DNA of 64,000 nt, taken from positions 124,001-188,000 of the forward strand of contig NZ_CP126158.1 of assembly GCF_030127145.1 (NCBI RefSeq), read 5' to 3'. A program made the position numbers and the translations under genes. Within the stretch, counting starts at the first letter, position 1. The number at the start of each line of letters is the position of its first letter. This document shows, one piece after another, positions 42,655 through 49,001 of this stretch. The DNA comes from Halobaculum halobium (lineage in GTDB: Archaea; Halobacteriota; Halobacteria; Halobacteriales; Haloferacaceae). A model generated the notes under the pieces. It made no database searches. It was not told where the DNA came from and saw only the letters and a list, made by a program, of their open reading frames with translations.

Positions 42655-42720
42655 GTCGAGACGAGCGGAGTCACAAGTCGAGACGAGCGGAGTCACAAGT
42701 CGAGACGGGCGGGATCACAA
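42655..42720. repeat. Three 22-bp direct tandem repeats upstream of the dap promoter
   Basis: Units 42655-42676 and 42677-42698 are identical; unit 42699-42720 differs at two or three bases. Each starts GTCGAGACG and ends TCACAA. The array ends 22 bases before the TATA box of the dap operon. Twenty-two bases is two helical turns, so the repeats share one DNA face, as expected for activator or repressor sites. There are no spacers, so it is not a CRISPR array. Confidence 0.85.
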
Positions 42721-42742
42721 ATTCGGCCAACAGGGAAACGCC

Positions 42743-42748
42743 TTTACT
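42743..42748 (+). promoter_or_regulatory. TATA box of the dap operon
   Basis: TTTACT lies 24 to 29 bases before the ATG at 42772, the usual distance for a leaderless haloarchaeal transcript. This puts the transcription start at the leader ORF, not at dapA. Confidence 0.6.
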
Positions 42749-42771
42749 CGCGTCGGATCTGTACTTCGGTA

Positions 42772-42858
42772 ATGAGCGAGACGCCGACCTCGACGCGCGC
42801 CGTCGTCGTCGAGCCTTGCGTCCGCCCCGCCTTCTCAGCGAAACCGAAACGTGTGTGA
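42772..42858 (+). CDS. 28-residue leader ORF ahead of dapA with two late lysine codons
   Basis: A short frame opening MSETPTSTRAVVVEPCVRP and ending FSAKPKRV. It starts at the predicted transcription start, 109 bases upstream of the dapA stop-free leader. Both lysines are AAA codons near the end, which stand out in a GC-rich genome. Two alternative hairpins follow directly. This is the layout of a lysine-sensing leader peptide; whether it is translated is not known. Confidence 0.45.
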   Translation: MSETPTSTRAVVVEPCVRPAFSAKPKRV

Positions 42859-42861
42859 GAT

Positions 42862-42922
42862 CGCTCCCGGCCTGGCGTAGCGGCCGGTCGGGGGCGAGTT
42901 TCGGTCCGCCGTTCGCTCGCCC
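42862..42922 (+). promoter_or_regulatory. Two mutually exclusive hairpins in the dapA leader
   Basis: Hairpin 1 pairs CGCTCCCGGCC (42862-42872) with 42882-42896: an 8-bp outer stem including one G-U pair, a bulge, and a 3-bp inner stem. Hairpin 2 pairs GGGCGAG (42892-42898) with CTCGCCC (42916-42922), a perfect 7-bp stem. They share 42892-42896, so only one can form. Hairpin 1 begins 4 bases after the leader ORF stop. No T-run follows hairpin 2, so a classic intrinsic terminator is not clear. Confidence 0.4.
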
Positions 42923-42967
42923 GTACCCATCTGCGACAACCGACGAACTCACCCAGACACCACACCC

Positions 42968-43891
42968 ATGACGATATCCCACGACACCTTCGCCGGCGTC
43001 TACCCGGCGATGACGACGCCGTTCACCGACGGCACCGACGAGGTCGATCACGAACAGCTCGCCGCCGACGCGCGACGACTCGCGGACGCCGGCGTCGACG
43101 GGCTCGTCCCGGTCGGCTCGACCGGCGAGGCCGCGACGCTCACCCACGACGAACACGCCGAGGTCGTCGAGACCGTCGTCGGCGCCGTCGACGTGCCCGT
43201 GATCGCCGGCACCGGCTCGAACTCGACGCGCGAGGCGCTGGACCTGTCCGAGCGCGCGGCCGACGCCGGCGCGGACGCGATCCTGCTCATATCGCCGTAC
43301 TACAACAAGCCCGAGCCGGCGGGCCAGTACGACCACTTCGCGACCATCGCGGACGCGGTCGACGTCCCGCAGGTCGTGTACAACGTTCCGAGCCGGACCG
43401 GCCTCAACCTCGACGTCGACACCGTCGTCGACCTCGCGGCACACGAGAACGTGCAGGGGTACAAGGCCGCCTCCGGCGACGCGAACCAGATCTCGGAGAT
43501 CATCGAGCGCACGCGCGGGGAGGCGTTCGACGTGCTCTCGGGCGACGACGGGATGACGCTCCCGATCATGTCGATGGGCGCGACGGGGACCATCTCGGTC
43601 ACCGCCAACGTCGAGCCCGAACGGACCGCGGAACTGGTCCACGCCGCCCTCGACGGCGACTTCGAGCGCGCACGCGAGATCCACCACGAACTCGGGCCGC
43701 TGACGCGCGCGCTCTTCGGCGAGACGAACCCGATCCCGGTGAAGGAGGCGATGGCGATCCGAGGGTACGGACCGGCGGAACTGCGCCCGCCGCTGACGCG
43801 CGGGAGCGACGAGACGCTGCGCGTGCTGACGGAACTGCTCGCGGAGTTGGAGGGACCAGCAGACGCGGCGTCGCCCGCAGATGGGGCCTGA
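42968..43891 (+). CDS. dapA: 4-hydroxy-tetrahydrodipicolinate synthase
   Basis: A 307-residue class I aldolase condensing aspartate semialdehyde with pyruvate, the first committed step to diaminopimelate and lysine. Motifs: VPVGSTGEAATLTHDEH, the active-site Tyr in VVYNVPSRTGLNL and the Schiff-base Lys near 165 in VQGYKAASGDANQI. YYNKPEPAGQYDHF is also typical. It is the first full gene of the dap operon; dapB starts 2 bases after its stop, so translation is probably coupled. Confidence 0.94.
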   Translation: MTISHDTFAGVYPAMTTPFTDGTDEVDHEQLAADARRLADAGVDGLVPVGSTGEAATLTHDEHAEVVETVVGAVDVPVIAGTGSNSTREALDLSERAADAGADAILLISPYYNKPEPAGQYDHFATIADAVDVPQVVYNVPSRTGLNLDVDTVVDLAAHENVQGYKAASGDANQISEIIERTRGEAFDVLSGDDGMTLPIMSMGATGTISVTANVEPERTAELVHAALDGDFERAREIHHELGPLTRALFGETNPIPVKEAMAIRGYGPAELRPPLTRGSDETLRVLTELLAELEGPADAASPADGA

Positions 43892-43892
43892 G

Positions 43893-44679
43893 ATGGCGGT
43901 CGAGACTGGCGACACCGTCCACATCGCCGTCACCGGCGCCGGCGGGCGAATGGGTCGGGAAGTCATCGAAGCCGCGAGCGACCGCGACGACTGCGAGGTC
44001 GCGCTCGCCGTCAACCGCTCGCCGGTCGATCCCGTTGCCGGCGTCGCGGTCGACGACGCGACCGACCTCCCGACGCTGCTCGCCGACGCGGACCCGGCCG
44101 TCGACGTGCTCGTCGACTTTACCGGCCCCGAATCCAGCGTCGAGTACGTCGCCGCCGCCGCCGATGCCGGCGTCGCCTGCGTCGTCGGCACGACCGGTTT
44201 CGACGACGAGCAGGAGGGCGCACTCGCCGACGCCGTCGAGTCGGTTCCCGTCCTGCGCGCGTCGAACTTCTCGCGCGGCATCGCCGCGCTCCGTCGCGCC
44301 GTTCGCGAGGCGGCGGCGGCGCTGCCCGGCTACGACGTGGAGGTCACCGAGACCCATCACAACGGGAAGGTCGACGCGCCCAGCGGCACGGCGCTCACAC
44401 TGCTCGACGACATCGAGGACGCGCGGCCTGACCTGGACAAGCGCGTCCACGGCCGGGAGGGCGACGCCCCGCGGACGGACGGCGAGATCGGCGTTCACGC
44501 CCGCCGAGGGCGACATCGCCGGCGAGCACGAGGTGCTCATGGCCGGCGACGAGAACGTGCTCGAACTGACCCACCGCGCCGGCTCCCGGCGCGTCTTCGC
44601 CGCCGGCGCGCTCGACGCCGCCGCGTGGCTGACCGACCGCGACGCCGGCGAATACGACTTCACGGAGGTACTCGACTGA
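43893..44679 (+). pseudogene. dapB: 4-hydroxy-tetrahydrodipicolinate reductase, frameshifted near 44508
   Basis: The first frame gives VHIAVTGAGGRMGREVIEA (the NAD(P) Rossmann start), FTGPESSVEYVAAA, VVGTTGFDDEQEGAL, and the catalytic TETHHNGKVDAPSGTA. After GEIGVHARRG the frame turns Arg-rich. The next frame continues DIAGEHEVLMAGDENVLEL and AAGALDAAAWL to the stop at 44679. The shift is +1 (or -2) at the GGG of 44508-44510. The protein would be about 262 residues, normal for DapB. The enzyme is needed for lysine in this operon, so a sequencing indel is likely. Confidence 0.87.
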
Positions 44680-44681
44680 CC

Positions 44682-45521
44682 ATGACACTGGAATCCGACA
44701 TCGACGACCTGTGGCACCGCTACGACGACGGACTCACCGCTGCCGACGCCGACGCCGCCGTCCGGCGAACGCTCGACGAGTTCCTCGACGCGCTGGAGGC
44801 CGGCGATGTCCGCGCCGCGCGCAAGACCGGCGACGGCGTCGACTCGTGGGAGGCAACCGAGTGGGTCAAGCGGGGCGTCCTGCTCAACTTCGGCCTGCGC
44901 GAGACCGAGCGCCGCGAGTACGGCGGCGTCGGCTACTACGACGTGCTCCCGCTGCGCGAGACCGACGACCTCGAAGCCAGGGGCGCGCGCAACACCCCCG
45001 ACGGAACCGTGCTCCGACGAGGCGCCCACCTCGGCGACGACACGATCATGATGAGCCCGTCGTTCGTCAACATCGCCGCGTACGTCGGCGACGGCACCCT
45101 TGTCGACTCCTGTGACACCGTCGGCTCGTGCGCCCAACTCGGGGAGGACGTGAAGCTCGGCGCGAACACGCTGATCGGCGGCGTGTTAGAGCCGGTCGAG
45201 GACGCGCCGGTGATAATCGAGGACGGCGTCTCCCTCGGCGCGGGCTGTCGGGTCACCTCCGGGTTCCGCGTCGGCGAGAACTCGATCGTCGGCGAGAACA
45301 CGCTGCTCACCCCCAGGATCCCGGTGTACGACCTCGTCGAGGAGGAGGTCGTCTACGGCCACCTCCCCGAGAACCGCCGGGCGTTCACCCGGTTCGTCGA
45401 GTCGAGCGTCAGCGACCACGACCTGTTCGAGGGCGGCGCGTACAAGCCCGCGGTCGTCGCCACCGACGTGGAGACGGAGACGCTGGAGGCGACTCGGCGC
45501 GAGGACGCCCTCCGCGAATGA
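44682..45521 (+). CDS. dapD: Tetrahydrodipicolinate N-succinyltransferase
   Basis: A 279-residue left-handed beta-helix acyltransferase using succinyl-CoA. The N-terminal helical part is LWHRYDDGLTAADADAAVRR; hexapeptide repeats run from about residue 110 (LRRGAHLGDDTIMMSPSFVN, VGDGTLVDSCDTVGSCAQLG, GEDVKLGANTLIGGVLEP). PAPVIIEDG-type and GSRVTEG-like regions follow. It fixes the pathway as the succinylase branch. It starts 2 bases after dapB and overlaps lysA by four bases. Confidence 0.92.
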   Translation: MTLESDIDDLWHRYDDGLTAADADAAVRRTLDEFLDALEAGDVRAARKTGDGVDSWEATEWVKRGVLLNFGLRETERREYGGVGYYDVLPLRETDDLEARGARNTPDGTVLRRGAHLGDDTIMMSPSFVNIAAYVGDGTLVDSCDTVGSCAQLGEDVKLGANTLIGGVLEPVEDAPVIIEDGVSLGAGCRVTSGFRVGENSIVGENTLLTPRIPVYDLVEEEVVYGHLPENRRAFTRFVESSVSDHDLFEGGAYKPAVVATDVETETLEATRREDALRE

Positions 45522-46828
45522 GCGCCGAGCAGTCCGTCGGGGGTGGAAACCCACTCGTCCGCCGGCTCGCGGACTGGGACGCCGACCGCCTGCGCGACCT
45601 GGCGGCCGAGCACGGCACGCCGCTGTACGTCACCGACCTCGACCGGGTCGCCGAGAACTGCGCGCGCCTGCGCGACGCGTTTTCGGGCGCGGACGTGAAG
45701 TACGCGGTGAAGGCACACACCGGTCGAGCCGTCCTCGAAACGGTCCACGAGGCCGGCCTCGACGCCGAGTGTGCTTCCGCCGGCGAGGTCCGCCGCGCGC
45801 TCGACGCCGGATTCCCCGGCGAGCGCGTCGACTACACCGCCGTCAACCCGCCCGCATGCGACCTCGACAGCGTGGTCGAGTGGTGGGGCGACCACCCCGA
45901 TCCCACGATCACCGTCGGCGCGCGCGACACGCTGGATCGCCTCGCCGAGCGCGGCTACGACGGCCGCGTCTGCGTCCGGGTCAACCCGGGCGTCGGCGCG
46001 GGCCACCACGAGAAGGTCAGGACGGGCGCGGCGCCGAAGTTCGGCGTCCCGTACGACCGCGCGGCCGAGGTCGTCGCCGACGCCCGCGACCGGTTCGACG
46101 TGGTCGGGATCCACGCCCACGCGGGGTCGGGTATCCACGCCGAGGAGGACCTCGCTGCCCACCGCGACCTCGTCGCACGCATGGGCGAGTTGGCGCGCGA
46201 GATCGGATCCGCCGGGGACGAAGGCGGCGACGGCGCACTGGAGTTCGTCAACGTGGGCGGCGGCTTCGGCGTCCCGTACCGGGAGGACGACCCCGCACTC
46301 GACCTCGACGCCGTCGCCGACGCGACCAGGGAGGCCCTGGGCGACGTTGCCGCGACGCTCGCGGTCGAACCCGGCCGCTACGTCGTCGCCGACGCGGGCG
46401 TCCTCCTGACCCGGGTGAACACCGTGAAGCCGACGCCCGAGACGACGGTCGCCGGCGTCGACGCCGGGATGACGGATCTGCTTCGCCCGGCGATGTACGA
46501 CGCGTACCACGCGATCCGGACACTCGACGTCGACGAGGCCGACGCGGAGGGGACTCCCGAGGACTGCGCCCGCGACACCGGACCGGTCACCGTCGCCGGG
46601 CCCATCTGCGAGACCGGCGACACCTTCTGCGACGCTCGCGAGCTGCCGATCCCCGAGCGGGACGACCTGCTCGCCGTCGGCAACGCGGGCGCCTACGGCT
46701 ACGAGATGGCCTCGACGTACAACTCCCGGTCGCGCCCCGCGGAGGTGAGCCTCGCGGGCGACCCGCTGCGCGAGCGCGAGACGCTCGCGGGAGTTACCCG
46801 GTTGGAGCGGCGAGGGGAACGCGAATGA
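45518..46828 (+). CDS. lysA: Diaminopimelate decarboxylase
   Basis: A 436-residue fold-III PLP decarboxylase for the last step to lysine. The PLP lysine lies in VKYAVKAHTGRAVLE (near residue 59), and the phosphate/glycine loop is NVGGGFGVPY. The substrate-binding and dimer-partner region is GPICETGDTFCDARELP, with the catalytic-type Cys. The C-terminal NAGAYGYEMASTYNSRSRP is diagnostic. ATGA overlap with dapD and another with dapF show strong translational coupling. Confidence 0.94.
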   Translation: MSAEQSVGGGNPLVRRLADWDADRLRDLAAEHGTPLYVTDLDRVAENCARLRDAFSGADVKYAVKAHTGRAVLETVHEAGLDAECASAGEVRRALDAGFPGERVDYTAVNPPACDLDSVVEWWGDHPDPTITVGARDTLDRLAERGYDGRVCVRVNPGVGAGHHEKVRTGAAPKFGVPYDRAAEVVADARDRFDVVGIHAHAGSGIHAEEDLAAHRDLVARMGELAREIGSAGDEGGDGALEFVNVGGGFGVPYREDDPALDLDAVADATREALGDVAATLAVEPGRYVVADAGVLLTRVNTVKPTPETTVAGVDAGMTDLLRPAMYDAYHAIRTLDVDEADAEGTPEDCARDTGPVTVAGPICETGDTFCDARELPIPERDDLLAVGNAGAYGYEMASTYNSRSRPAEVSLAGDPLRERETLAGVTRLERRGERE

Positions 46829-47817
46829 CCGAGCCATCGGAGCAGCGCGCGTCCGCCGAGTCGCGGACGGTTCCGGCGGTGAAGTACCACGGCACGGGCA
46901 ACGACTTCCTGGTGGTCGACGCCGCGGACGCCGCCGGAACGGTCCCGGACCGCGGCGCGTTCGCGGTCCACCACTGCGACCGCGAGACCGGCGTCGAGGG
47001 CGCCGACCGAACCGGCGCCGACGGCGTCCTGTTCATGGGGATCGACGGGACCACCGTCGACGGCGACGGTCCCGTCACGGCCACCATGACGCTCGTCCAG
47101 CCGGACGCCTCCATCGCCGAGATGTGCGGTAACGGCGCGCGCTGTGCGGCCGCGTGGGTGCGCGAACGAACCGGCGCGAACGTGGTCGACCTGGAGACGC
47201 CCGCCGGAACCCGCCGGGCGGTCGTCCGCGACGGCGACGGGAACGGCGGAACTGACGGCGGCGCCGGCGGCGACGGACCCGACGAGGTCACCGTCGAGGT
47301 GGAGATGGGTCGCCCGTCGTTCGCCCCGGAGGACGTGCCGCTTGCGGCCGACCGGGACGCCCCGCTCGTCGAGGAGGACGTGGAGGGCCTCACCGTCACC
47401 GCCGTCGACACCGGCGTTCCGCACGCGGTCGCGTTCGTCGACGGCGACGCCGGCGGGGTGGACGCCGTGGATCTGGAGTCGGTCGCGCCGCCCGTCCGCC
47501 ACGCCGAGGCGTTCCCGGATGGAGCGAACGTCACCCTCGCGACCCATACCGGCGACGGAACGGTCGACCAGCGCACATACGAGCGCGGCGTCGAGGGCGA
47601 GACGCTCGCGTGCGGGACCGGTGCGGTCGCCGTGGGCGCGGTCGCGCGCCGTCTCGGCGTGACCGACCGAACCGCGCTCGCCGTGTCGCCGCCGGGCGGC
47701 ACGCTTCAGATCACGGTCCCCGACGACGCGCCGGCGACGCTCACCGGTCCGGCTGCACGGGAGTTCGAGATCGAGCTCGCGGTGCCGGAGGCGGCCGCCG
47801 GGGAGAGTGCCGAATGA
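46825..47817 (+). CDS. dapF: Diaminopimelate epimerase
   Basis: A 330-residue two-domain racemase that converts LL- to meso-diaminopimelate without a cofactor. The two catalytic cysteines lie in IAEMCGNGARCAAAWV and GETLACGTGAVAVGAV. YHGTGNDFLVVDAAD is the N-terminal signature. It is longer than bacterial DapF (about 275) because of an acidic/Gly insertion near 130-150 (DGNGGTDGGAGGDGPDE). It overlaps lysA and dapE by four bases each. Confidence 0.94.
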   Translation: MTEPSEQRASAESRTVPAVKYHGTGNDFLVVDAADAAGTVPDRGAFAVHHCDRETGVEGADRTGADGVLFMGIDGTTVDGDGPVTATMTLVQPDASIAEMCGNGARCAAAWVRERTGANVVDLETPAGTRRAVVRDGDGNGGTDGGAGGDGPDEVTVEVEMGRPSFAPEDVPLAADRDAPLVEEDVEGLTVTAVDTGVPHAVAFVDGDAGGVDAVDLESVAPPVRHAEAFPDGANVTLATHTGDGTVDQRTYERGVEGETLACGTGAVAVGAVARRLGVTDRTALAVSPPGGTLQITVPDDAPATLTGPAAREFEIELAVPEAAAGESAE

Positions 47818-49001
47818 GCGACGGCACCGCGGCGTCGCCGGCGGCCGACTTCGACCCGGTCGACTTCCTCGCCGATGCCGTTCAGATAGAATCCCACGAG
47901 TCGCCCGACGCGATGCGAGAGTACCTCCTCGAGACGCTCTCGGATCACGGCGCGGAGCCGTGGGTCGACAACGCCGGCAACGTCCGCGCGACGCGGTGCG
48001 CGGCGGATGCAAGTGCCGCGGCGCAGGGGCCGCACCTCGTGTGCAACACCCACATCGACACCGTGCCCCCGCACGTTGACTGCCGACGGGACACCGACGA
48101 CGAGGGCAACGAGGTGGTTCGCGGCCGCGGCGCCTGCGACGCGAAGGGACCGCTCGCGGCGCTGCTCGCCGGGTTCTTGGCGGTGGAGCCGACGCGGGGA
48201 CGAGTCACGCTCGCGGTCACGTCCGACGAGGAGACGCTGTCGACTGGCGCGGACGCGTTGGTACGGGGTCGCGAGGACGACCACCCGGACGGCCCGGTCG
48301 CCCCCGTCGACGGCGACCTGTTCATCGTCGGCGAACCGACCGACTGCGACGTCTGCGTGGCTGCGCGGGGCCGGTTCGAGGGGACGCTGACGCTCACCGG
48401 GTCGGCGGCCCACGCGGCCGAACCGGACTCGGGCGTCAACGCTGTCGCAGCGCTGGAGCCCGCGCTCGCGGCGATTCGTCGGTTCGACGACGGCGCCGAG
48501 GCGCACCCGATGCTCGGGGAGCCGACGCTCGTCGCGACCGGCGCGACCGGCGGGGAGGCGACCAATCAGGTGCCCGCGTCGGCGACGATCACACTCGACC
48601 GCCGCTCGGTGCCGCCGGAGACCGCCGAGGGATTTCGCGCGTCGCTGGAGGCGGCCGTCCGCGAGGCCGTCGCCGACGACGTTGGCGTCGCGTTCGACCT
48701 CACGGCGCGCCCGACGCCGTTCCTGGAGGCGTTCGACACCGATCCCGACCACCCGCTGGTCGCGGCCGTCTCCGGGGCGGCGAGCGCGGTCGGCGGCACC
48801 GCCGACGGTGAGGTGCGTCCGTTCGGCGCGGCGACGGAGGCGTCGTACTTCTCGCCCGCGCCGACGGTCGTATTCGGACCGGGACACTTGGCGGACGAGG
48901 CCGGCGCGGTCGCCCACAGCGAGCGCGAGTACGTCCGCGTCGACCGCGTCCGCGACGCCGCCGGGACCGCGCGCCGCGCGCTCGACGAGCTGCTCGGGTA
49001 A
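47814..49001 (+). CDS. dapE: Succinyl-diaminopimelate desuccinylase (M20 peptidase family)
   Basis: A 395-residue zinc amidohydrolase. Metal ligands: His in CNTHIDTVPPH, Asp in GRGACDAKGPLAALL, the catalytic Glu-Glu in VTSDEETLSTG, and Glu/Asp in IVGEPTDCD. A small lid domain (residues about 190-300) has GSAAHAAEPDSGVNAV. It removes succinate from the DapD/DapC product. No dapC is in the operon; an ArgD-type aminotransferase elsewhere must supply that step. ArgE/LysK specificity is the main alternative, but the operon favours DapE. Confidence 0.9.
   Translation: MSDGTAASPAADFDPVDFLADAVQIESHESPDAMREYLLETLSDHGAEPWVDNAGNVRATRCAADASAAAQGPHLVCNTHIDTVPPHVDCRRDTDDEGNEVVRGRGACDAKGPLAALLAGFLAVEPTRGRVTLAVTSDEETLSTGADALVRGREDDHPDGPVAPVDGDLFIVGEPTDCDVCVAARGRFEGTLTLTGSAAHAAEPDSGVNAVAALEPALAAIRRFDDGAEAHPMLGEPTLVATGATGGEATNQVPASATITLDRRSVPPETAEGFRASLEAAVREAVADDVGVAFDLTARPTPFLEAFDTDPDHPLVAAVSGAASAVGGTADGEVRPFGAATEASYFSPAPTVVFGPGHLADEAGAVAHSEREYVRVDRVRDAAGTARRALDELLG

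Follow-up and report, generated by a model that had tools for sequence, protein, structure and literature searches.

The leader of the lysine operon

The window, by which we mean the whole 64,000-nucleotide stretch of Halobaculum halobium DNA analysed here, carries on its forward strand a lysine operon dapA-dapB-dapD-lysA-dapF-dapE (42968-49001), with genes assigned by TIGR00674, TIGR00036, NF008808, TIGR01048, TIGR00652 and NF006402, respectively. The first gene, dapA, spans 42968-43891 (NCBIfam). The second, dapB (43881-44679), is split over two frames, one covering the profile as far as position 214 and the other positions 209-270; the break near 44511 is either an assembly error or a genuine frameshift in the window genome. 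Upstream of dapA, on the same strand, we identified the TATA-like box TTTACT of a leader promoter (42743-42748) and, starting 29 nt downstream of it, a leader ORF of 28 codons plus stop (42772-42858) that encodes the peptide MSETPTSTRAVVVEPCVRPAFSAKPKRV. Both were as claimed by the earlier note, which had assigned this TATA box to a 28-codon ORF. The note had also described the ORF as ending in two AAA lysine codons; the two codons are indeed there (42841-42843 and 42847-42849), but they are the fifth and third from last and the peptide ends in K-P-K-R-V. In Haloferax the majority of transcripts are leaderless and begin at the start codon (PMC4983044), and the TATA-ORF spacing thus predicts a leaderless transcript that starts with the leader ORF. 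We conclude that transcription of the dapA leader probably begins at or near the leader AUG or GUG. Just upstream of the promoter (42657-42721), TCGAGACGAGCGGAGTCACAAG is found in three near-identical tandem copies.

Subsequently, dapA orthologues were taken from 60 relatives, their upstream DNA was read and leader ORFs were tabulated. Fifty of these loci were haloarchaeal, and at 49 of them a TATA-like box is followed at about 30 nt by an ORF of 21-40 codons that contains Lys codons and precedes a hairpin. The leader was missing at one haloarchaeal locus (L048, genome G014), and five divergent small-genome lineages (L051-L055) possess dapA with the leader absent. The TATA-like boxes are mostly located at about -28 to -32 and are weak in some leaders. 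Start codons, assigned by hand, were ATG in 28 and GTG in 21 of the 49 leaders. All 49 have at least one Lys codon among the last eight codons and 41 have at least two, the final one being positioned 2-6 codons ahead of the stop; the comparison across haloarchaea, of the kind proposed in the earlier note, found lysine codons kept in all 49 leaders. Lys accounts for 93 of 1327 leader codons (7%, AAA:AAG 84:9), compared with 91 of 8644 codons (1%, AAA:AAG 2:89) in dapA itself. The pattern is constant as KK, KPK, KRK or K..K, and the neighbouring residues vary. A slippery-site frameshift at AAAAAAC was rejected as an explanation because the site is not universal, the KPK and KRK leaders lacking the heptamer. 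We also applied an automatic rule requiring a TATA-spaced ORF of 18-42 codons with at least two Lys among the last eight, which 37 of the 50 dapA leaders passed; among dinucleotide shuffles the mean was 0.2 of 50.

Between genera, the remainder of the peptide is not conserved. Within the genus, leaders are 27, 28, 30 and 32 codons long, their lengths differing by multiples of three nucleotides, and the body has no third-position bias, the variable columns being distributed 7/7/7 over the codon positions. The coding evidence therefore rests on the frame, the start, the stop and the Lys codons, and the peptide body does not resemble a protein under selection. Scanned with a covariance model of the RNA element (R1), 275 of 293 genomes from the order gave a match at E ≤ 1, in most cases a far stronger one; the model also matched 79 of 80 dapA loci in a genome collection of mostly named species, and Haloferax, Haloarcula, Natrialba, Halorubrum and Natrinema are among the positive genera. 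Leaders of this type occur in Haloferax mucosum and H. profundi; the dapA gene of Haloferax volcanii is HVO_1101. In a phylum-wide sample of 295 genomes there were 47 model matches, all within the order and none outside it. Judged by these matches, the dapA leader is conserved nearly throughout haloarchaea.

A nested RNA element after the lysine codons

Downstream of the ORF lies a hairpin, P2 (42862-42896, forward strand), of 12-13 pairs with a conserved G.U pair, a C-G pair and the loop GURGCG. The last Lys codon is separated from P2 by 11-18 nt, in most cases by 12-13. In the P2 alignment 92.6% of cells are paired, and 8-9 pairs show compensatory changes on both sides, with a covariation score reached by none of 500 shuffles; the first of the two hairpins proposed in the earlier note is thereby confirmed. 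The support was repeated on 79 further sequences, although their alignment was fitted to the covariance model and is somewhat biased. The G.U pair is present in 48 of 49 and 78 of 79 sequences, the C-G pair in all, and U, G and C of the loop are conserved. Around the window's P2 loop (42875-42880) the near-invariant G.U, the invariant C-G and the URGC loop are conserved beyond the needs of a simple stem, and this core may be a protein-binding site. Neither the window nor eight related loci matched any Rfam family at gathering score. Searches for P2 in other operons gave secondary covariance-model matches only, which were weak, and no recurring position was noticed.

P2 is enclosed by an outer stem, P1, that pairs the segment right after the last Lys codon, stop included, with a segment beyond P2. 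In the window its 5' strand, CGTGTGTGAG (42850-42859), comprises the last two codons and the stop, and pairs in the MFE structure with the 3' strand, GCTCGCCCGT, at about 42915-42924; both are on the forward strand and covary across genera. We compared pairing with own and with swapped partners in 40 sequences, about one per genus where possible, and obtained -12.2 versus -9.8 kcal/mol (z -6.7), with four control segments at z +0.6, -1.0, -0.1 and -0.1. A second set (n=48) gave z -5.3, with controls at -1.6 and +0.4; the two sets have some genera in common and are not wholly independent. P1 is weak in the window genome, weaker than in its relatives (L005, L006, L008), and the whole single leader of the window folds no better than shuffles (z -0.45).

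The earlier note had proposed a second hairpin (42892-42922) competing with the first. Pairing between the 3' arm of P2 and the sequence beyond it does not exceed that in shuffles (mean z +0.57), the second hairpin is not conserved, and the downstream segment it would use, CTCGCCC (about 42916-42922), fits better as the P1 3' strand. Mutually exclusive antiterminator and terminator hairpins were accordingly not found in the leader, and the conserved architecture is a single nested element of outer P1 and inner P2. Likewise, no intrinsic terminator, T-run or U-tract was seen in the leader ahead of dapA. The untranslated stretch before the gene (42925-42967, forward strand) is C- and A-rich and T-poor; across genomes, the segment between P2 and dapA consists of 41% C, 27% A, 21% G and 12% T. 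The note's statement that no T-run follows the hairpins agrees with this finding, as no terminator-like site was detected. The dapA start is positioned outside the P1 stem.

Leaders of other amino-acid genes

With the automatic rule, cognate residues at the end of a leader ORF were found for K at 37 of 50 dapA loci, for F at 19 of 30 pheS loci, and for I and V at 15 and 12 of 30 ilvB loci. In the same genomes no cognate leaders were found before trpC, hisG and trpS (at most 1 for the residues scored), nor were leaders with His or Trp found before hisG, trpF, trpC and trpS. The pheS leaders are TATA-spaced ORFs of 24-30 codons with a Phe-rich end, for instance ...GFGFFFAA before the stop. Those at L199, L210 and L197 lie some 770-930 nt upstream of the match to the catalytic domain and are followed by conserved GGCGGA and GAAACC motifs. 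The partner-swap test on pheS gave z -3.8, but since its control was also significant (z -2.4), no stem pairing is claimed for pheS. The H. volcanii dRNA-seq study lists a 26-codon uORF ahead of pheS, with no comment on its codons, and dapA is absent from the 16 uORF genes given there (PMC4983044, Table 2). At the DNA level, ATT-GTA-GGGGC..stop..CCCC is common to the ilvB leaders of 26 of 30 genomes; at L218 and L237 the Ile/Val codons ATT ATT GTA are followed by a short GGGGC/CCCC hairpin across the stop codon, and the ilvB leader of the window genome (L224) lies about 280 nt ahead of the domain match. The ilvB and pheS leaders carry cognate codons, but their downstream elements are unlike P1-P2. 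The Lys, Phe and Ile/Val specificity of the three leaders is the best evidence that cognate codons matter.

A different arrangement was observed at leuA beside ilvB (L388-L412, the window genome being L389). Here the TATA-proximal ATG opens a frame reading MSHNQDSSVTSPAERVL(CTT)PGH..., and LeuA (EFFQGTL...FDTTLRDGE) is encoded in the +1 frame relative to that ATG. At many of these loci the +1 frame has no ATG, GTG or TTG start after its last stop, and leuA loci share CGAGTTCTTCCAGGGCAC at the junction of the two frames. The arrangement may reflect conserved recoding into the +1 frame at a Leu codon of a leucine gene; the alternative is a non-standard start. The main contig of the window genome carries two leuA-ilvB pairs (G000:C1, 8294-11568 and 2724284-2727570), with equal leuA scores.

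A proposed ribosome-mediated attenuator and its alternatives

We consider the dapA leader a candidate ribosome-mediated, lysine-codon-specific attenuator, and put the probability of this reading at roughly 0.72. That the leader is an attenuator for the amino acid made by the operon had been proposed in the earlier note, and this part is sustained by the Lys codons, the AAA bias, their spacing to a covarying stem, the identity of the operon and the Phe and Ile/Val parallels; the switch between two competing hairpins is not. In the proposed mechanism a ribosome would load at the 5' end of the transcript and translate the 21-40 codons. With ample Lys-tRNA it would clear the Lys codons, terminate at the stop and depart, upon which the nested P1-P2 would close and expression of dapA-dapE would presumably be lowered. 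With Lys-tRNA short, mostly that reading AAA, the ribosome would wait on the Lys codons. A waiting ribosome covers about a dozen bases past its A-site codon, a figure that comes from bacterial ribosomes. The P1 5' strand, which covaries with its 3' partner, lies in the 9-12 nt that follow the last Lys codon, and by this geometry it would be hidden under the leading edge of the waiting ribosome; a shortage of Lys-tRNA should therefore alter the state of the RNA. P1 would then be held open and the operon expressed, the open state being the permissive one by the logic of the pathway.

As to the output, our guess is that FttA/aCPSF1-dependent loss of transcription is somewhat more likely than direct translational control, because there is no U-tract and the dapA start lies outside the stem. 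As a general possibility, it has been suggested that archaeal FttA acts once the ribosome is uncoupled from the polymerase (PMC11616081, PMC8116511), which makes factor-dependent termination at the dapA leader plausible.

A point against simple attenuation is the invariant core of P2, the G.U pair and the URGC loop, which exceeds what attenuation requires. Also weighing against the attenuator are the weak P1 of the window genome, the missing third-position bias, the lack of a visible terminator and the absence of dapA from the H. volcanii uORF table, whereas the uORF listed there for pheS speaks in its favour. The conservation of P2 beyond pairing, seen in both sets of sequences, would be expected if P2 were the sensor of a protein or small molecule and the ORF delivered ribosomes or were incidental. 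We regard such an RNA element as unlikely, because it leaves aside the Lys codons of all 49 leaders, their tight spacing and the codon bias; moreover, the ilvB and pheS leaders keep cognate codons with other downstream elements, and no Rfam family was matched. Alternatively, a basic C-terminus (KKR, KPKR) could stall the ribosome by nascent-chain arrest irrespective of Lys-tRNA charging, and Lys is in fact often trailed by Arg to give a basic tail. However, Arg is absent and Lys stands alone in L026 (GGKFKTACC) and L037 (VKFFGKVGT), the residues after Lys differ while the RNA pairing persists, the AAA bias is a signal at the codon level, and the Phe and Ile/Val leaders are non-basic, so that arrest of this kind is quite improbable. 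The occurrence of the ORF across the order would also suit a conserved small protein with a function of its own, whose gene would be the first of the operon, but a body that differs from genus to genus and lacks third-position bias inside the genus, together with last codons that are constrained as RNA, makes this very improbable. A chance ORF with ordinary GC-rich folding of the 5' UTR, which the shuffle-like folding of the single leader might suggest, is refuted by the conservation of the leader, by its excess over the 0.2 of 50 expected and by the covariation of P1 and P2.

The preferred reading, a lysine-codon attenuator, resembles the bacterial trpL, hisL, ilvGMEDA, thr and pheST attenuators in having a short ORF upstream of a biosynthetic or synthetase gene and, near the ORF end, several codons specifying the amino acid that is made; by the proposed geometry, stem formation would likewise depend on ribosome position. 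Cognate-codon leaders as such are known from bacteria. In contrast to those attenuators, the haloarchaeal leader has an archaeal TATA promoter, a probably leaderless start and no U-tract terminator; in place of a conserved antiterminator/terminator pair it has one nested stem with a sequence-conserved core, and it is predicted to sense lysine. To class it with the attenuators of the classical trp type would be wrong, because competing hairpins and an intrinsic terminator were both tested for and neither was found. As in the bacterial Rho-dependent tnaC and mgtL systems, leader translation would govern factor-dependent transcription loss in a C-rich untranslated stretch. To our knowledge archaea lack Rho. 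In place of Rho, FttA/aCPSF1 would be needed, for which the literature offers a general possibility (PMC11616081, PMC8116511). The lysine riboswitch (L box) and the T-box likewise exert 5' UTR control over lysine operons, but here no Rfam family matches and a translated-looking Lys-codon ORF replaces the aptamer or tRNA-binding element. From bacterial leaders it differs in promoter type and RNA architecture, and probably in its output.

Archaeal regulation has, as far as we know, been described almost wholly at promoters. A start-site study of H. volcanii judged structured-leader control untypical of haloarchaea (PMC4983044). In the open-access literature, to which the search was confined, no previous description of archaeal leader-peptide attenuation turned up, so that priority is not certain. 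It seems reasonably probable that haloarchaea possess a class of cognate-codon leaders, with at least Lys/dapA, Phe/pheS and Ile/Val/ilvB as members, which would control amino-acid genes through the position of the ribosome, with no intrinsic terminator and probably by way of an archaea-only termination factor, and which would have arisen independently of bacterial attenuation. In an order that includes tractable model species, such a conserved, codon-specific leader would permit a direct test of transcription-translation coupling, and also of the role proposed for FttA once translation and transcription separate (PMC11616081, PMC8116511). If the reading is true, amino-acid attenuation would have evolved again outside bacteria.
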